Source: Bacteroidales bacterium (lineage in GTDB: Bacteria > Bacteroidota > Bacteroidia > Bacteroidales > BM520). Taken from it: a stretch of DNA of 41,408 nt. The position numbers and the translations under genes are program-made. The stretch is taken from the NCBI GenBank assembly GCA_017538085.1, contig JAFYJP010000195.1, forward strand, positions 1 to 41,408, given 5' to 3'. Numbering within the stretch: the first letter of the stretch is position 1; every line of letters begins with the position of its first letter. The notes under the pieces are model-generated. The model did not search any database. It was not told where the DNA came from and saw only the letters and a list, made by a program, of their open reading frames with translations. This document shows positions 28,998-39,711 of the stretch, in pieces.

Positions 28998-29069
28998 GCT
29001 CAAAAATCAATTCATTAACGTAATTATTTTTATTTTCGCATTTTGTTTAATTTCAAATATAATTTCAAA

Positions 29070-29822
29070 ATGAAAAAGATAATTCTTACAGCTCTTGCAA
29101 TACTCATTTACAATATCGGCTTTGCGCAATATCCGCGTATTTATGGAGTTACCACATACGAATTGATTTTTTCATCAGCCCAATATAATGTTTTCGACAG
29201 CAAAAGCGGCAACGTCCTGCGATTCTCCCCATGGTTCAATCTTGAGGAATCAGTGAACTTCGACATAGCGACTGTTGTCGGATTCACCGCCGGAATATCA
29301 GTGAAAAACATTGGTATCATCCATAAACTGAGTGACCCTTCCACAATTGACCCAAAATTTGATAGCACACCCATCAAGAAAGAATTCCGCTCATATAATA
29401 TAGGTATCCCCGTAGGTTTCAAACTCGGCAACCTGTCACAATTTTTCATATACGGAGGTTATGAGTTCGAAATCCCAATCAACTTTAGGGAAAAAACTTA
29501 TATAGATGGAGCAAAGACAAAATACGAAAGCGAATGGTTCAGCAACAAAACACCGAGATACATGCAATCGCTGTACCTTGGACTGAAGTTCCCATATAAT
29601 TTAGGTATAAAAGCCAAATACTACCTCACCAACTTCTTCGCAAACGATTGTGAAGACTATGTGCATGACTATCCTGCAATTAAATACAAGGATTTTGAGG
29701 CACGGCCTTTCTACTTGAGTCTGACCATTGATTTGTTCAACAAAATGGATACAAGAATTTCCATTCCATCACTGAACAGCAAAAGCAAAAAAAATAGTGA
29801 GCCGCAGTATTATTACGATTAA
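29070..29822 (+). CDS. Predicted outer-membrane beta-barrel protein
   Basis: A 250-residue protein with a signal peptide ending near IGFAQ (residue 20). The rest shows alternating hydrophobic strands with aromatic girdles and turns (GFTAGISVKNIGIIHKL, IGIPVGFKLGNLSQFFIYGG, SLYLGLKFPYNLGIKAKYYL, FYLSLTIDLF), as in small 8-10 strand barrels. No specific family is recognised, and a 30-residue polar tail follows the last strand. I start at the ATG at 29070, which gives a normal signal peptide, rather than a TTG nine codons upstream. The next gene, the SLC12-NTPase fusion, begins two bases after its stop, so the two are probably translated together. Confidence 0.72.
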   Translation: MKKIILTALAILIYNIGFAQYPRIYGVTTYELIFSSAQYNVFDSKSGNVLRFSPWFNLEESVNFDIATVVGFTAGISVKNIGIIHKLSDPSTIDPKFDSTPIKKEFRSYNIGIPVGFKLGNLSQFFIYGGYEFEIPINFREKTYIDGAKTKYESEWFSNKTPRYMQSLYLGLKFPYNLGIKAKYYLTNFFANDCEDYVHDYPAIKYKDFEARPFYLSLTIDLFNKMDTRISIPSLNSKSKKNSEPQYYYD

Positions 29823-29824
29823 TA

Positions 29825-32800
29825 ATGACAACACACAGAAACAGTAAATTAGGCACTACATCAGGAGTATTTCTGCCATCGCTTCTGACCATCGTCGGGG
29901 CAATAATGTTCCTGCGATTGGGTTGGATAATCCAACATGGCGGGCTGATACAGTCAATTTGGATAGTCATCACTGCCTTCGCAATGTCCCTGATTACAGG
30001 ATGTTGCCTGTCGTCAATTGCAACCGACAAGAAGATACAGGATGACGGCATATATCATATACTTACGAGAAGTCTGGGGCTGCCGATGGGAAGCACCATC
30101 TGCATTATGATGACTCTTGCCCTGATTTTCAGTGCCGCATTGCAAATAATAGGTATATCCGAATCCCTGCTCGACATTTCAAAAGCAAGCAATTTTCTGC
30201 ATATTGCACCATCAGCCGCATCATACAGGATTATCGGTTCGATATTGCTACTACCTGTCTTCGCATTGGTGATGATATCCCGTAAATCCACATTAATTCA
30301 GAAATTCAAATATGTGGTCGTCATCACCATCATCCTTGCAACCATTTCCATAATTGCCGGTTTATTTACAAAAGAAGACATTCATCCTCTTGTGCCAACT
30401 ACAGGAACCGCATACGACGGTCACTCATGGATTTATATTTTCAGCATATTTTTCCCTGCATTATCAGGTTTTGCCACCGGCCTCGCCAATTCAACAGGTT
30501 TGAAGGACGCTAAGAAATCCATTCCGAGAGGGATGATTCTCGCAATAATCACAAGTGCCGTCATATATCTTTCAGTAATAATACTGCTTGCGTATGAAGT
30601 CAGACCCGACATTCTCAAGACGACCAATTATCTTCCTTCAATATCATGGAATGCCACGATAACATTTATATGCTGTTGGATATCACTTGTCTTCATAGCC
30701 ATAAATGCTCTTACAATCGGATCCGACATAATTCTATCCATGGTTCATGACAAGGTGCTGCCAGAGTTCTTCGCCCATTCCTCTGACAATTCTGGTAAGC
30801 CGGTCATTAACATTGTAATCATGTTTGTCCTCACCGAATGTGCAATACTCATCGGTGATTTCAACACCTTAGCTCGGATAACAACATTTTTCCTGCTTGT
30901 TTCATACGCGCTCATCAATCTTGCGCTGATGCTTGAGAAATGGACTAACCCGGATTTCCGGCCCACATTCGATGTTAGCAAATATATAGGTCTCATCGGA
31001 TTGTTTATATGCAGTGTTGCCTTATACGACATTAATCGCTATGGGATGCTGGGAACAGTAATTGCCGTAATTCTGCTCTACTTTTTCATCAGACGCAAAA
31101 GACTTCAGCTCGAATATGATGATATATGGCAAAACGTACTCCTCGCCATCACAAAAACATCTATTTCAAGAATAAACAAAAGAAAACTCGAAAACAGAAC
31201 GTGGCAGCCCAACATCATCGTTTTCAGCGGTGACAAAGACCAGCGGCCGTATCTTGTAGATTTCGGAAAATGGATTGCAGGCAAACATGGATTTGTAAGC
31301 AACTTCAACATCACAACATCAAAAGAAAAAAAGAACGCATACAAAAATTCACGTCGTGACAGCAATGTCATTGAAAACAAAATATTTCCGTCAAACGACA
31401 TATACAGCGGAATAGAGACTGTGGCAAGTGTATATGGGTTTGCCGGAATCGAACCCAATACCGTATTGTTAGGGTTTAACAGCACCGCCAAGAATCGCGA
31501 GAGATACATTACCATGCTCGCCAACATTTCCAAACTCGACAAAAATATCCTTCTTATCCATTACAACGAAGACAACGGCTTTGGAAACAAGAAGAATTTC
31601 GACGTTTGGGTTACTCCGGGTGAAAGAGACAGCCTCTTCGCGCTCAATGTTATCAAGCTGATTAGCAATTCAACCGAATGGTCACAATGCTCGCTCAGAA
31701 TCAAGGTGGTGAACAGCAACAATTCCTCATACAATCTTGTGTATAACAAAGTTGAGGAAATAATGGCACAACTTCGAATAAGCGGCGAAATCCTAATCAT
31801 CAACAACGAACTCGAAGACAAACCAGTAAAAGACTTAATCGCCTCACATTCGACCGATGCAGATGTCATCTTCATTGCCGTACCACCTACTGGAAACTAT
31901 AACGAGAAATACGACTACATGTCCAACCTCTCACAAATCAACAAGACAATCATATTCGTCAAGGCCTCAACCGAGTTCCAGTCAATAGGCAACCTCGACA
32001 TCATCACCAAACAGCTATTGCAACCAGAACAGACAGCAGTCACAGAAGAGGATGTCGAACTGCAACTTCCTATACGTCAGGAAGCAGCATCATTCTTCGT
32101 TGACCTTGACAAACAGGTCCAGACAGCCATTGACAAATCATTGAACAACCGTTTTGACCTGATTTCCAAATATTTCAAAACCAATATCGAGTACATACTC
32201 GAAACTGTAAAAAACAACTACGTTCAGACAAATTCCCCGGGAAGATTCCGTCACATTGCACATATTTCAGGAAAAACCATCAAACAAAAGTTTCTGGAAT
32301 TCATCAATAACATACTGCCCGAGATACATAATCTAATTTTAGGCAGCAGCAGGGATTTCCTAAACGAAATGTCAACAATATGTGCTTCTGTACCTAAAAC
32401 ATTCACAGTGTTTTACGAGGAAAATCTATCCTACCCCTCTGATAACGACACTCACGACATCATCAAATTCAAGAAGAAACTCGCACGTTATTTCAAACAC
32501 AACAGAGAAGGATTCTACCCTTACGAAGTCAAAATCGACAAGTTCATAACCAACAGGTTGGATGCCATGTACAACGAAATGATGACCAAAGCATTCGACC
32601 AATTCAAGGATTATTGTCTTTCGTATTATTTCAATGTCAACAACATCATCAATTCCATCGATGACACTAATGCAATAATAAACGGTTCCTGCAACATTGA
32701 AGGCTTCAATTTCGATAAGGCAGTTGAGAACATATATTCTCACATTGAGACTTCCAATGACAAAAACAACAAGACTGTCAATGAAATAAAGAACACTCTT

Positions 32801-34864
32801 ACCGCTATAAAGAACAAATATTTTGATGAAATACGCAATTATTTTGACGTTCTCAACTTCGGTGAAATCAAAGTCAAATCCAATGCTGTTAACTGTAACA
32901 GCTGTTCAGACGCAGTAACTGACAAATTCGACAGACTCAGCACAATACTGCCGGCATTGTTTAACAGACTGGTACTCAACACCGACCTCACAATCTTCAA
33001 AATAAAACTCAAGAGTTACTGTTCTGAAACGCTATCCCTCATAACTGATTTCATCAACAATAAAGTCATCCCGTTCCATGAGGCATTCATCAGCGCAATC
33101 AAGGAAAACAACAACATAGAGCTCGTTGAGACATCCTCCGAATATGACATGAAATCCGACATGTTCTCACATTTCAGTGAAATCAACGACAAAATAAACA
33201 AGAGTATTCTTCGTTTTCCGTCCGAAATAACAATTCTCGACAATCAGGCAGTGGCATGCCTTGGGGATGAAAACATCCACTCAGTGCATTCATCCAACTT
33301 CGCCGCATCGCGACTGCTTGACAATTCAGTGATCTACTATTATTCCAACAACATAAAGAAACAACTCAACCTCCTCGGTTCCAAAGTTGACAGTTCGCTC
33401 GACAAGCACAAGGACATCATCACACAGCTGTCATTCACCAATGAAGACAATGACGAGCAGAAAGATGCCATCATTCTTAACATCTACAATCTGATAATTG
33501 ACCTCAAGACATCGCTGAGCGAAACATGCCACGAAATACAGTCAACAGAAACCATTACTGACGAACAGCTGCAAATCGAACAGTTCATTGACTCTTCCCA
33601 CAATCTGCACAACATCATCAGCACTAACATCAACGATAAGAAAAAGGAGAAAATTCTTTCACTGCGTGAAAAGATATCCGTTTCATTCCACAAGACACTG
33701 TCGAAAATCTTCTATCGCCAGAACTCAAGCATCAAATTTGCCAAGAATCTTCAGCAGAGAAATTCCGACAATGAACTTCTGAAACTTTATATCAACGCAA
33801 TCAACAAAATATCGCTGAAACCTGAAGTTGACCAGACTCTCCCATACTCCTACAAACAGTTATTCATCAATAACCAGCAGTACAACAAGGAATTATGGGT
33901 CGGAAGAGTCAGGGAAACAAACGACTTCAACATTCTTCTAGGTCAGTACAACAGTCTGAAGGCAGGAGCGATTATGGTTACCGGAGGCATAGGCTCAGGC
34001 AAAACCTTCTTCTCGTATCACGTTGCCAAGACTGCATTTCCGGACCAGCAGATATTCACCATAAAATCCGTTACCGGCGGAAGTGCATCTGTAAGCAAGT
34101 TCGAGACCTCATTTCTCAGAGCCATCGAAATGCAGAATATATCTTTATTCAAGGCTATCCGCGAAATCCCTAAAGGCTCAATTTTCATCCTCGACAACAT
34201 TGAACAATGGTGGCACCGCGGTGACAAAGGCAATGATGTGATAAAACTGATCACCGAGTTGGTAAACAAATACAGCGAAAACTATCTGTTTATTTTGAAT
34301 TCAAACACCGAAGGCCTTAACGCTCTGCAACTTACCACCAACATACGAGATATAATAATCGGTACTGTCAATCTGCTTCCGTTCAGCGCTGAAGAAATCG
34401 AAGCCATCATCACAAGACGTCATAAGGCAGGAAACATGCATATATGCATTGACAACAAGAATGAAAAACTTCTGCGTCCATGGCACTATGCACAACTGTT
34501 CCTGCAATATGACAAACTAACGACTGGCAACATCAAATCAGCCTTAAGCACATGGCTCGCATGTATCGACAAAGTAGAAAACGACACTATTTTCGTACAT
34601 CATCCTGAAGTTCCGAAGTCATTGCCGTTCAATGAATTAACAAAACAACAGATTATATTTCTCGTACAGTTCATAATACATAACAACATGTCATACGAAA
34701 GGATGCAGGCAATTTACAATCGCCCGATATCAAGTCTGAAACAGGATGTCAACGTGCTTATCAGGTTAAGGCTTCTTGAAAAGAAGAGCGAGAATGTTAT
34801 CGGAATAAACAATATCCTATATCCATTTATTATAGAGGAACTTAACAACATAGAAATGATTTAA
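29825..34864 (+). CDS. SLC12-type cation-chloride cotransporter fused to helical region and P-loop NTPase
   Basis: A 1679-residue protein. Residues 10-420 hold about twelve transmembrane helices matching the cation-chloride cotransporter family: GVFLPSLLTIVGAIMFLRLG (first helix), DDGIYHILTRSLGLPMGS, FFPALSGFATGLANSTGLKD and TTFFLLVSYALINLALM. Residues 440-760 match the family's cytoplasmic C-terminal domain (WQPNIIVFSGDKDQRPYLVD). Residues about 770-1340 are unassigned, helical and charged. The end is a P-loop NTPase: Walker A GGIGSGKT (1387-1394), Walker B FILDN (aspartate 1457), then EEIEAIITRRHKAGN and a likely winged helix (about 1595-1679), like STAND or AAA+ proteins. Known cotransporters are near 1000 residues and lack an ATPase. 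Likely ion transport controlled by nucleotide state; ion specificity and function are inference. Confidence 0.82.
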   Translation: MTTHRNSKLGTTSGVFLPSLLTIVGAIMFLRLGWIIQHGGLIQSIWIVITAFAMSLITGCCLSSIATDKKIQDDGIYHILTRSLGLPMGSTICIMMTLALIFSAALQIIGISESLLDISKASNFLHIAPSAASYRIIGSILLLPVFALVMISRKSTLIQKFKYVVVITIILATISIIAGLFTKEDIHPLVPTTGTAYDGHSWIYIFSIFFPALSGFATGLANSTGLKDAKKSIPRGMILAIITSAVIYLSVIILLAYEVRPDILKTTNYLPSISWNATITFICCWISLVFIAINALTIGSDIILSMVHDKVLPEFFAHSSDNSGKPVINIVIMFVLTECAILIGDFNTLARITTFFLLVSYALINLALMLEKWTNPDFRPTFDVSKYIGLIGLFICSVALYDINRYGMLGTVIAVILLYFFIRRKRLQLEYDDIWQNVLLAITKTSISRINKRKLENRTWQPNIIVFSGDKDQRPYLVDFGKWIAGKHGFVSNFNITTSKEKKNAYKNSRRDSNVIENKIFPSNDIYSGIETVASVYGFAGIEPNTVLLGFNSTAKNRERYITMLANISKLDKNILLIHYNEDNGFGNKKNFDVWVTPGERDSLFALNVIKLISNSTEWSQCSLRIKVVNSNNSSYNLVYNKVEEIMAQLRISGEILIINNELEDKPVKDLIASHSTDADVIFIAVPPTGNYNEKYDYMSNLSQINKTIIFVKASTEFQSIGNLDIITKQLLQPEQTAVTEEDVELQLPIRQEAASFFVDLDKQVQTAIDKSLNNRFDLISKYFKTNIEYILETVKNNYVQTNSPGRFRHIAHISGKTIKQKFLEFINNILPEIHNLILGSSRDFLNEMSTICASVPKTFTVFYEENLSYPSDNDTHDIIKFKKKLARYFKHNREGFYPYEVKIDKFITNRLDAMYNEMMTKAFDQFKDYCLSYYFNVNNIINSIDDTNAIINGSCNIEGFNFDKAVENIYSHIETSNDKNNKTVNEIKNTLTAIKNKYFDEIRNYFDVLNFGEIKVKSNAVNCNSCSDAVTDKFDRLSTILPALFNRLVLNTDLTIFKIKLKSYCSETLSLITDFINNKVIPFHEAFISAIKENNNIELVETSSEYDMKSDMFSHFSEINDKINKSILRFPSEITILDNQAVACLGDENIHSVHSSNFAASRLLDNSVIYYYSNNIKKQLNLLGSKVDSSLDKHKDIITQLSFTNEDNDEQKDAIILNIYNLIIDLKTSLSETCHEIQSTETITDEQLQIEQFIDSSHNLHNIISTNINDKKKEKILSLREKISVSFHKTLSKIFYRQNSSIKFAKNLQQRNSDNELLKLYINAINKISLKPEVDQTLPYSYKQLFINNQQYNKELWVGRVRETNDFNILLGQYNSLKAGAIMVTGGIGSGKTFFSYHVAKTAFPDQQIFTIKSVTGGSASVSKFETSFLRAIEMQNISLFKAIREIPKGSIFILDNIEQWWHRGDKGNDVIKLITELVNKYSENYLFILNSNTEGLNALQLTTNIRDIIIGTVNLLPFSAEEIEAIITRRHKAGNMHICIDNKNEKLLRPWHYAQLFLQYDKLTTGNIKSALSTWLACIDKVENDTIFVHHPEVPKSLPFNELTKQQIIFLVQFIIHNNMSYERMQAIYNRPISSLKQDVNVLIRLRLLEKKSENVIGINNILYPFIIEELNNIEMI

Positions 34865-34868
34865 CGTC

Positions 34869-35600
34869 ATGGAAGGGACTGAAATTCAATACAATCTGAC
34901 GCAAACGATAATCATTATAATCGTTGTCACACTGATTCTTTTGCTCATACTGAGGCTGCTGAAATACATATTCCCGCTGCTTCCGCGTAAAGAACGCACC
35001 AGAGAATGGATAAAAAAGAATTTCGTTTATGCCGAAAGTTTCATTTGGATGATTTACCTCGCCATCATCATTCCCTACCTGCACAAGACCAACATCATTT
35101 TTGAAATAGTTGCAGTCTCCATCATCCTGATTGTAATCATATTGATAGGATATTATTTCGGAAGGGATTTCTTTGCTGGAATTGTTTTCAAGTTTGCCTA
35201 TAAAATAAAGGAAGGAGACTTCATACAATACAATGACACTGTCGGGAAAGTCAAGAAACTCGGAATACAGAACATAGAAATGGAATCAGATGACAACCGA
35301 CTGATATTCATTCCATACACATCAGCCAAACGCGGTATCTTCAGCAAGATATTCAACAATGAACAAAGTCTGACCTGCACTTTTTCATTCACCATTGACT
35401 CTCCAGCCGTTAGCAAGGAAACGATTTCCTCAATCAAAACGTATCTGTTATCCCACCCTTCTGTCTCCACGCAATATGAACCGGTAATAAAATTCAATCA
35501 GGACGAAAACATGAAGACTTTGGCAACTATCTCATTTACAACGCTTGACGAATCAATGGATGACACCATAATAGAAAATGTTAAAAACAAATTCAAATAA
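34869..35600 (+). CDS. Small MscS-type mechanosensitive channel protein
   Basis: A 243-residue membrane protein with three hydrophobic helices (about 13-33, 50-70 and 75-96), then the MscS pore-lining and beta-domain sequence YYFGRDFFAGIVFKFAYKIK, EGDFIQYNDTVGKVKKLGIQ and IEMESDDNRLIFIPYT. The C-terminal alpha-beta domain (about 165-240) is present but short. MscS channels open under membrane tension and release solutes in hypo-osmotic shock. The usual glycine/alanine packing of the pore helix is not clear, so gating may differ. It starts 4 bases after the SLC12-NTPase gene, so the two are almost surely co-transcribed, which points to a shared role in ion or volume balance. Confidence 0.85.
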   Translation: MEGTEIQYNLTQTIIIIIVVTLILLLILRLLKYIFPLLPRKERTREWIKKNFVYAESFIWMIYLAIIIPYLHKTNIIFEIVAVSIILIVIILIGYYFGRDFFAGIVFKFAYKIKEGDFIQYNDTVGKVKKLGIQNIEMESDDNRLIFIPYTSAKRGIFSKIFNNEQSLTCTFSFTIDSPAVSKETISSIKTYLLSHPSVSTQYEPVIKFNQDENMKTLATISFTTLDESMDDTIIENVKNKFK

Positions 35601-37295: not shown

Positions 37296-37301
37296 GTACA
37301 G

Positions 37302-37375
37302 TCGGGATGAGAGGACTTGAACCTCCGGCCTCTTCGTCCCGAACGAAGCGCGCTAGCCAACTGCGCCACATCCCG
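37302..37375 (-). tRNA. tRNA-Pro (anticodon CGG)
   Basis: A 74-base tRNA on the minus strand. Acceptor arms CGGGATG and CATCCCG pair fully with discriminator A. The anticodon stem CTTCG/CGAAG closes loop TTCGGGA with anticodon CGG, reading CCG. The D arm has GTTGGCTAGC and the T arm GGTTCAAGTCC. CCA is not encoded. Confidence 0.95.
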
Positions 37376-37388
37376 ATTATTTACGCTG

Positions 37389-37396
37389 CAAAATTA
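37389..37396 (-). promoter_or_regulatory. Bacteroidetes -7 box for tRNA-Pro
   Basis: TAATTTTG on the minus strand matches TAnnTTTG, 13 bases before the tRNA 5' end. The upstream side is an A-run with no clear TTTG. Confidence 0.55.
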
Positions 37397-37429
37397 CTCT
37401 TTTTTTTCATTTATATCCATTTCATTTTT

Positions 37430-37437
37430 TATTTTTG
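37430..37437 (+). promoter_or_regulatory. Bacteroidetes -7 box for the ECF sigma gene
   Basis: TATTTTTG matches TAnnTTTG and lies 31 bases before the sigma factor ATG, divergent from the tRNA-Pro box. Confidence 0.55.
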
Positions 37438-37468
37438 TAACCAATTGAAAAAATTGCGTCAAAAGGTA

Positions 37469-38011
37469 ATGGACAGTATTAATGAAAACGATATAATTGA
37501 AAGAATAATCGGCGGCGACACCGAAGCTTTCTCATATATAGTTGACAAATATAAAGATATGGTTTTCAATATTGTACACAAGATTATCCCAGACTGTCAG
37601 GACGCTGAGGACATCACCCAAGACGTATTCATCAAGGTGTTCCAGAAACTTGACAGTTTCAAATCCAAGTCGAAACTGACGACCTGGATTTACACTATAG
37701 CATACAACGAAGCCATAAGCGCAACTCGCAAAAAGACACATGATTTCATCGCAATACCAGACAACTTTGAAATTAAGGACAATGACCCAGTTGAAGAAGT
37801 CACATATTCCGATGAACTGCTTGAAATTCTGAAAAAGGAAATGGAAAATCTCGACCCACTCGACAACCTGATCCTTACTCTTTACTACAACATGGAAAAC
37901 TCTATTGAAGAAATAGCTGAAATCACAGGACTGACCCAGGCCAATGTGAAAGTCAAACTCTTCAGGACCAGAAAAAAACTATTGAATAAATTAAAAGATA
38001 AAACTCATTAA
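37469..38011 (+). CDS. ECF-type RNA polymerase sigma factor
   Basis: A 180-residue sigma-70 of the ECF group with regions 2 and 4 only. Region 2 includes FSYIVDKYKDMVFNIVHKI and the core-binding and -10 recognition part QDAEDITQDVFIKVFQKL, then TWIYTIAYN. Region 4 is IEEIAEITGLTQANVKVKLF followed by RTRKKLLNKL. The open frame extends upstream through the tRNA-Pro gene, so I start at the ATG at 37469, after the -7 box. A small membrane protein follows after two bases, in the usual place of an anti-sigma factor. The regulon and signal are unknown. Confidence 0.9.
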   Translation: MDSINENDIIERIIGGDTEAFSYIVDKYKDMVFNIVHKIIPDCQDAEDITQDVFIKVFQKLDSFKSKSKLTTWIYTIAYNEAISATRKKTHDFIAIPDNFEIKDNDPVEEVTYSDELLEILKKEMENLDPLDNLILTLYYNMENSIEEIAEITGLTQANVKVKLFRTRKKLLNKLKDKTH

Positions 38012-38452: not shown

Positions 38453-39604
38453 TCATATACGTGTTATGCCCATAGGCCATTCATGCGAAATGATATCTAA
38501 CATGTAACGATAATCCCCATCATTATTCACAAAATCAAGAGAACTGGTATTTACAATTACTATTCTCTTTCCGCTTTCCTGACGGAAATAATCAAGATAC
38601 CCATCCTGTATCGACTGCAGATAGTCATCGGATATGTTACGTTCATAGCTGCGGCCGCGTTTTCTGATGTTACTCTGCAAATTTTCAACCGGCAGATGAA
38701 GATATACCAACAAGTCGGGTTCCGGCAATTTTGTCTTTATGATATTGAACAGCACGGAATAAAGACGGAAGAGGTCGTCAGACAAAGTCTTTCCGGCAAA
38801 AATATAAGACTTGGACAAAAAATAATCCGATACCACAAGATTATGGAACAAGTCCATATTTATCAGATTATCAGTCAATTGTCTGTATCTCGCAGCAAGA
38901 AATGAGAGTTCCACAGGAAAAGCGTACTTATCTTTATCAGCATAAAACATTGGGAGAAACGGATTGTCGGCAAACTGTTCAAGAATCAATTTTGCATTGA
39001 GGTCTTTTGCAATACGAGTTGAAAGCGATGTTTTTCCTGCGCCTATGCAGCCTTCTATGGCAATATAAGAATAAATATGTTCGATATTATGCTGTAAATC
39101 AGCGCCATAATTATCGCGGTCTATTTTTTTGACTTTCAGTGAATCAGTGCATTCAAGATATAGCTGACGGACAGTTTTATGAAGTACTGGGTGCATGAAA
39201 TCAGGGATGATGTCATTAAGCGGTTCCAATACAAATCTGCGTTCAGTAAGCTGGTGATGGGGAATTTTCAGATACAGTTCATTTACGACCAATTCGCCGT
39301 ATAGGATTATATCCACATCAATTATTCTGTTTTCATACCTGCGGTCGAAAGTCTTCCTGCGTCCCATTTCAATCTCAACAGACTTGCATACGTGCAGAAT
39401 CTCAAAAGGCAGCAGGTCGGTGGTGTAAACTACCGCACGGTTATAGAACATTTTGTCGGTGTCATATCCCCAAGGTTCCGTTTCATATATGGCACCAATC
39501 AGCTTGGGTGAGCCGAAAAAAGCATTCAGGCGATGAATGGCAGTGCTTATATTTGATTCCCTGTCGCCGAGATTTGTTCCAATCATTAAAACTAAGTCTC
39601 TCAT
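38453..39604 (-). CDS. folK: Fused HPPK (FolK) and deoxynucleoside kinase
   Basis: A 383-residue two-domain protein. The N-terminal part (about 1-160) is 6-hydroxymethyl-7,8-dihydropterin pyrophosphokinase of folate synthesis: MIGTNLGDRESN, YETEPWGY, FYNRAV and RRYENRIIDVDIILYG. The C-terminal part (about 175-383) is a deoxynucleoside kinase of the dCK/dGK type with P-loop EGCIGAGKTS (lysine 191), VVSDYFLSKS and RGRSYERN. One enzyme thus feeds folate synthesis and the other nucleotide salvage. I start at the ATG at 39604 because the sequence upstream is A/T-rich and non-family. It is convergent with the sigma operon and divergent from sppA. Confidence 0.9.
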   Translation of the reverse strand: MRDLVLMIGTNLGDRESNISTAIHRLNAFFGSPKLIGAIYETEPWGYDTDKMFYNRAVVYTTDLLPFEILHVCKSVEIEMGRRKTFDRRYENRIIDVDIILYGELVVNELYLKIPHHQLTERRFVLEPLNDIIPDFMHPVLHKTVRQLYLECTDSLKVKKIDRDNYGADLQHNIEHIYSYIAIEGCIGAGKTSLSTRIAKDLNAKLILEQFADNPFLPMFYADKDKYAFPVELSFLAARYRQLTDNLINMDLFHNLVVSDYFLSKSYIFAGKTLSDDLFRLYSVLFNIIKTKLPEPDLLVYLHLPVENLQSNIRKRGRSYERNISDDYLQSIQDGYLDYFRQESGKRIVIVNTSSLDFVNNDGDYRYMLDIISHEWPMGITRI

Positions 39605-39658
39605 TTTCAAAAAAATTCTTTTACGGAAATATTTTAGCAATATTACAAAAAAAATATA

Positions 39659-39666
39659 TATCTTTG
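39659..39666 (+). promoter_or_regulatory. Bacteroidetes -7 box for sppA
   Basis: TATCTTTG matches TAnnTTTG and lies 45 bases before the sppA ATG, in the divergent spacer from folK. A weak TTTA lies near the -33 position. Confidence 0.6.
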
Positions 39667-39711
39667 TGGTTTGAATCATAACTTTATAAACAAAAAAATA
39701 GTATTTTTATT

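Follow-up and report, generated by a model that had tools for sequence, protein, structure and literature searches.

An SLC12-type transporter fused to an AAA+/STAND-like P-loop NTPase and paired with an MscS-family channel gene in Bacteroidales

Introduction

The closest described relatives of the protein analysed here are the SLC12 cotransporters (KCC, NKCC and NCC) and their prokaryotic CCC homologues, which share its membrane core and its cytoplasmic C-terminal domain. To our knowledge, the bacterial SLC12 homologues are almost unstudied. MscS channels are usually regarded as safety valves that open passively under membrane tension, and the TrkA/KtrA proteins (RCK/KTN) are nucleotide-gated regulators of bacterial K+ transporters. 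In human NKCC1 the K+ ligand is Tyr383, the Na+ site contains Ser613 and Ser614, and Arg307 and Glu389 constitute the gate pair (PMC7889885). Human KCC1 binds ATP/ADP through its C-terminal domain (PMC8280820), though not by means of a P-loop ATPase. Hence nucleotide control of SLC12 proteins is not unprecedented, and the statement in the initial annotation of this DNA that SLC12 proteins have no ATPase, although valid for P-loop ATPases, was overstated. A P-loop NTPase attached to an SLC12 protein is, as far as we found, unprecedented. In models of haloarchaeal osmoadaptation, uptake by Trk is combined with efflux through Kef and MscS (PMC4230888).

Organization of the fusion gene

The window, that is, the whole stretch of 41,408 nucleotides of Bacteroidales bacterium contig JAFYJP010000195.1 that was analysed, carries at positions 29825-34864 of the forward strand a single uninterrupted open reading frame of 1679 codons. 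According to domain borders set from an alignment of 91 full-length fusions, the protein begins with an SLC12/APC-type membrane core of about 12 transmembrane segments, predicted by hydropathy (residues 1-430; 29825-31114), continues with an SLC12-type cytoplasmic C-terminal domain (residues 431-735; 31115-32029) and a long helical region (residues about 736-1330; 32030-33814), and ends with an AAA+/STAND-like P-loop NTPase followed by a C-terminal winged helix (residues about 1331-1679; 33815-34861), all on the forward strand. The K-Cl cotransporter model TIGR00930 matches residues 5-674 (E=3e-77, below its trusted cut-off) and AA_permease residues 14-423 (E=1e-29). A PDB search retrieves the solved KCC/NKCC structures (KCC4, E=7e-46), and the SLC12 family PF03522 matches the cytoplasmic domain with E=4e-5, below cut-off. 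Compared with SLC12 proteins, the fusion adds about 940 C-terminal residues, comprising the helical region and the P-loop NTPase, and an MscS partner.

Walker A is located at residues 1387-1394 (33983-34006, forward strand) and the Walker B region at residues about 1453-1458 (34181-34198, forward strand). AAA_14 matches residues 1382-1525 (E=6e-6; 26.7 bits, the cut-off being 27), while the homologous domain of locus L036 exceeds the curated cut-offs of AAA_16 (34.5 vs 32.6 bits), AAA_22 (29.2 vs 27) and AAA (25.7 vs 21.2), and all 14 homologous domains scanned match AAA_16 at E<0.01. The nSTAND, AAA_16, AAA_14 and ORC matches of the NTPase domain are all weak as a basis for choosing between STAND and another AAA+ clade, and Pfam and NCBIfam return only generic AAA models for the C-terminal part. 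The initial annotation had described an SLC12-type transporter joined to a nucleotide-binding P-loop domain, with the cytoplasmic domain of the family and a long helical stretch in the same frame. The TIGR00930, KCC/NKCC, AAA_14 and AAA_16 matches agree with that reading, as does the assignment of the C-terminal region to the P-loop class by the models that pass their cut-offs in homologues; the alternative raised with the annotation, that the C-terminal 330 residues would match no P-loop class, is thereby refuted.

The AlphaFold model of residues 741-1679 has a mean pLDDT of 82.5, and a separate prediction for the helical region, made from 85 sequences, gives the same value. The NTPase domain, with pLDDT mostly between 80 and 93, is predicted to contain the lid and winged helix of the AAA+ fold, and its Foldseek matches are ORC/Cdc6 proteins (ORC2/Cdc6, E~1e-7), RuvB and the archaeal Paby2304 ATPase; a plant NLR ranks lower. 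P-loop, lid and winged helix are common to this domain and to the STAND/AAA+ NTPases (ORC/Cdc6, Paby2304-type, nSTAND and NLR resistosomes), from which the protein differs in being attached to an ion transporter via a helical region without a solved relative. The best Foldseek match of that region in the PDB has E=0.25, so that no function can be assigned to it from its fold. In this family the Walker B region often reads [DE/N]D and is then followed by an E-x-W-W signature.

The Walker A sequence GK[ST] is kept in 90 of the 91 fusions. At least one Walker B acid is present in 88 of them, the acidic residue alternating between two positions, and in the other three there is none. Nucleotide binding thus reads as conserved across the fusions, while hydrolysis is uncertain, and in some members doubtful, because the Walker B acids vary and may be missing. 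This bears on the idea that ATP hydrolysis drives the transporter directly, converting a secondary cotransporter into an ATP-driven pump. The covalent joining of transporter and NTPase and the nearly invariant Walker A would suit such a pump; however, the catalytic acids of Walker B are not conserved, the NTPase part also exists without a transporter, and a helical region of 600 residues separates it from the membrane core, and we consider direct driving very improbable.

The fusion start codon lies 2 bases after the end of a probable outer-membrane beta-barrel gene (29043-29822, forward strand), the product of which matches OMP_b-brl_2 with E=0.005, below cut-off. This gene is found beside the fusion only in L031-L033, i.e. 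inside the genus, and is for that reason peripheral to the system.

Distribution of the fusion

A second genome of the genus encodes a fusion 96% identical over all 1679 residues (L002/L031), many genomes of the order have full-length frames of comparable length, and the three-part protein is present in at least 90 other loci. When 295 genomes of the order were surveyed, the NTPase domain was found in at least 41 open frames of 1654-1777 codons; a broader profile, A5, also recovers about one frame per genome at E~1e-6, which we take from its length to be ClpB-like, and such frames were ignored. The 80 best loci of a scan of public genomes belong to Bacteroidota, Chlorobiota/Ignavibacterium, Calditrichota, Latescibacterota, a myxococcal MAG and Desulfoluna limicola, and 72 frames in them contain both the transporter and the NTPase parts. 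The copy of D. limicola sits in a closed isolate genome, where the fusion and its MscS partner span 10001-15876 of L093. An assembly error joining two genes, a test that accompanied the initial annotation, is practically excluded by the 96% identical copy, by the homologues of the same three-part order and by the closed genome.

An MscS-family gene as the most constant neighbour

Four bases past the fusion stop codon begins a gene for an MscS-family mechanosensitive channel of 243 amino acids (34869-35600, forward strand; PF00924, E=4e-9). The family profile built from the MscS partners aligns with the E. coli MscS structure over residues 30-243, nearly the full length (E=2e-10), and both the MscS beta-domain and the last pore-lining transmembrane region are found in the product by PF00924 and the profile alignment. 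Compared with the known MscS channels the partner is a minimal homologue.

The pairing, which escaped the initial annotation, recurs in most of the family. Among the 80 best loci, 69 are informative, i.e. have the fusion away from the contig end, and in 54 of these an MscS-like gene follows the fusion, often with an overlap of 4 bases; the other 15 have no adjacent MscS gene. The 859 open reading frames of the 80 loci include 59 MscS-like genes, and all but two of them (57/59) flank the fusion. The adjacency holds in 13 of 14 informative loci in the order of the window and in 6 of 6 in the class. No MscS neighbour was seen beside the non-fused bacterial SLC12 genes (about 740-760 amino acids) of L043, L045 and L049. 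Gene adjacency is in itself no proof of contact between the fusion and the MscS protein.

The helical region and the NTPase as a portable module

The helical region and the NTPase form a separable module of about 900 residues. Profile searches with the NTPase retrieve stand-alone proteins of about 750-1130 amino acids, and the two regions align as one unit between these and the SLC12 fusions (hhalign, E=7e-79, 903 columns). With the helical region alone, hmmsearch finds L164 (E=3e-62) and L166 (E=9e-50, the latter without compositional bias), and the similarity in CPA fusions is weaker and accompanied by high compositional bias.

An MscS gene adjoins the stand-alone module in 28 of 38 loci; of the ten exceptions, six are members of a single subfamily of 1120 amino acids, which has lost or changed partners; the proteins of L161, L163 and L165 are of this kind and lack any MscS neighbour. 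CPA-type antiporter genes lie beside the stand-alone module in L164, L173, L174, L177, L178 and L179, their CPA identity being given by Pfam for L164, L173 and L179 only, and in L044 the neighbours are TrkH, TrkA and a CPA antiporter. Variations of the arrangement include two tandem MscS genes after the stand-alone NTPase in L168, L171 and L172, and one MscS gene followed by CorA in L169; similar genes of about 370 amino acids follow in the former three loci.

In a second class of fusions, of about 1500 amino acids, the N-terminus is a CPA2 antiporter (L246: PF00999, E=7e-19; TIGR00932, E=4e-9), and the gene shares an operon with MscS, TrkH and TrkA in L246, L247, L248 and L253. The tree of NTPase domains groups the CPA fusions in a single clade (support 0.98), within a half (support 1.0) from which SLC12 fusions are absent; the two kinds of fusion therefore arose independently. 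The stand-alone proteins of L044 (support 0.999) and L161 (0.98) nest among the SLC12 fusions, which indicates a later separation or change of partner. The initial annotation was right about the fusion, but the NTPase is not specific to SLC12, occurring also alone and on CPA2.

A gene for a multi-transmembrane protein of 414-422 amino acids precedes the CPA-NTPase fusion in four loci (L246, 12688-13956; L247, 12797-14041; L248, 5021-6265; L253, 3243-4487). The L246 copy has no match in Pfam; in three of the four loci the product is weakly similar to the fused CPA core and is perhaps a paired antiporter. The 1465-residue protein of L249 (9062-13459) combines a multi-transmembrane N-terminus with the NTPase module, its gene lying in an operon with TrkH/TrkA and MscS. 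Its N-terminus matches no Pfam family, and the protein was not counted as a CPA fusion; it is possibly a third fusion type. The N-terminal extensions of L250 and L251 were rejected as fusion partners, having no transmembrane segments and resembling spurious extensions of a high-GC frame.

As a cytosolic nucleotide-binding regulator of a bacterial ion transporter, the module would be analogous to TrkA/KtrA and Kef. It differs from TrkA/KtrA in its fold, an AAA+/STAND P-loop with a winged helix instead of a Rossmann RCK, in being MscS-paired and covalently fused to a transporter, and in being present in addition to TrkA, as it resides within Trk operons in L044, L246-L248 and L253. The combination of Trk, Kef and MscS in the haloarchaeal osmoadaptation models fits the gene company in which the module is found.

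The same company could be that of a chaperone, the module serving for assembly or quality control by inserting or remodelling MscS and the transporter, with no role as a gate. The AAA+ fold, the ORC/RuvB-like lid and the winged helix are compatible with it, as is the constant position beside membrane proteins of unrelated fold, but regulation accounts more naturally than a catalytic chaperone would for a covalent one-to-one joining with two unrelated transporters, and the Walker B acids vary, which makes this function unlikely. STAND-like NTPases are often used by defence systems, and channels can serve as effectors; an anti-phage or conflict system, in which a STAND sensor triggers ion leakage via MscS or the transporter, was therefore considered. 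PADLOC models match neither the fusion nor the stand-alone module nor the MscS protein, no plasmid or phage matches were found for the system, the neighbours are conserved across genera and the co-located Trk, CPA and CorA genes are housekeeping genes. We give a defence function hardly any credit; a housekeeping role fits the stable neighbours and the lack of plasmid, phage and PADLOC matches.

Transport residues and rapid change in the window lineage

Most fusions resemble NKCC1 in their ligands and gate pair, while the window copy lacks the cation ligands. The K+ ligand tyrosine is kept in 85 of the 91 fusions and is Gln107 in the window protein, in which Pro211 of the TM6 part of the K+ site is retained and Ser214 replaces the threonine. 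The two serines of the Na+ site, required in Na+-coupled SLC12 members only, are kept in 88 and 85 of the 91 fusions and are Phe290 and Ile291 in the window. The extracellular gate, Arg31 of TM1 and Glu113 of TM3 in window numbering, is invariant (91/91). In the relatives of the same genus, L032 and L033, the K+ tyrosine is replaced by Gln and His, and Ser-Thr is kept at the Na+ site. Since the ligands for both cations and the Arg-Glu gate are NKCC1-like in most of the family, most copies are probably working cotransporters. The window copy may no longer be a normal one, its transport being altered or lost, because Gln107, Phe290 and Ile291 stand in place of cation ligands.

In the membrane core, the window protein and L032 are separated by a tree distance of 1.42, compared with 0.41 for L032 and L033; the NTPase gives 0.76 and 0.51, respectively. 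The mean distance to the rest of the family is about doubled for the window in the membrane core (2.46 vs 1.29) and equal in the NTPase (2.78 vs 2.78). By these distances, only the transporter part has changed quickly in the window lineage, its membrane core several times faster than in the relatives of the genus, with the NTPase conserved. The window transporter may move other ions or serve as a sensor.

A sensor of this kind is expected if the protein were a membrane-anchored transcription factor, with the transporter sensing ions and the AAA+-winged-helix part binding DNA and controlling neighbouring genes, as in ORC/Cdc6 or MalT-like proteins. The top structural matches are indeed DNA-binding ORC/Cdc6 proteins with winged helices, and the loss of ligands next to a conserved NTPase in the window lineage is what a sensor might show. 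Transport residues are nevertheless kept in most family members, and the winged helices of STAND proteins usually do not bind DNA; we therefore judge a transcription factor quite unlikely.

Proposed model

Taking into account that: (i) transporter, helical region and NTPase are arranged in one protein; (ii) the fusion and MscS genes are paired in an operon-like manner; (iii) the module is mobile among unrelated transporters, and (iv) its nucleotide motifs are conserved, we propose, with somewhat better than even confidence, that the module is a regulator under nucleotide control and links an ion transporter to an MscS channel in ion or turgor homeostasis. The strongest functional evidence is that unrelated transporters have repeatedly joined one module whose most constant neighbour is MscS. 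In the model, the fusion would be an ion transporter with a built-in regulatory module, consisting of the helical region, the AAA+/STAND NTPase and the winged helix, that acts together with, and presumably contacts, the MscS channel encoded by the next gene. Binding of ATP/ADP would switch the shape or assembly of the module, and the switch would set MscS and the transporter, which is SLC12 in this protein and CPA2 or Trk in others, in opposite or coordinated states. Ion loading and release would then not oppose each other when turgor or energy shifts. The module could sense the ATP/ADP ratio, turgor or ions, and it may control its partners in either direction. The coupling of the transporter to MscS is what we infer from these arrangements; the 15 fusion loci and the 1120-residue subfamily without an adjacent MscS gene, together with the variable Walker B acids, speak against it, as do the lost cation ligands of the window copy and the compositional bias behind the mid-region similarity of the CPA fusion.

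In a more far-reaching form, the portable module of about 900 residues would physically couple exchangeable transporters (SLC12, CPA2, Trk, CorA) to MscS as one nucleotide-controlled unit of a widespread, undescribed system, in which the transporter of the window lineage would be a non-transporting sensor; we hold this form to be possible but rather doubtful. The initial annotation had suggested that nucleotide binding by a STAND/AAA-like domain gates or senses ion flux, giving a bacterial cell-volume or chloride regulator. A regulatory role in ion and volume control is still the best fit, but the suggestion was incomplete in lacking the MscS pairing and the portability, and chloride regulation through normal cotransport is uncertain for the window copy, which has lost the cation ligands.

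The open-access papers searched contain no prior description of an SLC12-NTPase-MscS arrangement, in line with the initial annotation, which knew of no described system of this build, and they describe no dedicated NTPase with the known MscS channels. The system may well be categorically new by virtue of its coupling to MscS. The repeated attachment of a conserved module to unrelated transporters, beside an MscS gene, suggests that some bacteria run a valve and a loader jointly through a nucleotide switch, raises the question of an enzymatic control over MscS gating in these bacteria, and may help to explain how SLC12-type transporters were regulated without the animal kinase pathway.

Other features of the window

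On the reverse strand, one gene (38453-39679) encodes both the folate-synthesis enzyme HPPK (PF01288, E=9e-31) and a deoxynucleoside kinase (PF01712, E=3e-32) as a fusion; HPPK-deoxynucleoside kinase fusions have been described in Bacteroidota. The listed start of an ECF sigma factor frame (37307-38011, forward strand) is overlapped in antisense by a tRNA-Pro gene (37301-37375, reverse strand), and because of this overlap the true start of the sigma factor is probably located about 150 bases downstream of the listed one.
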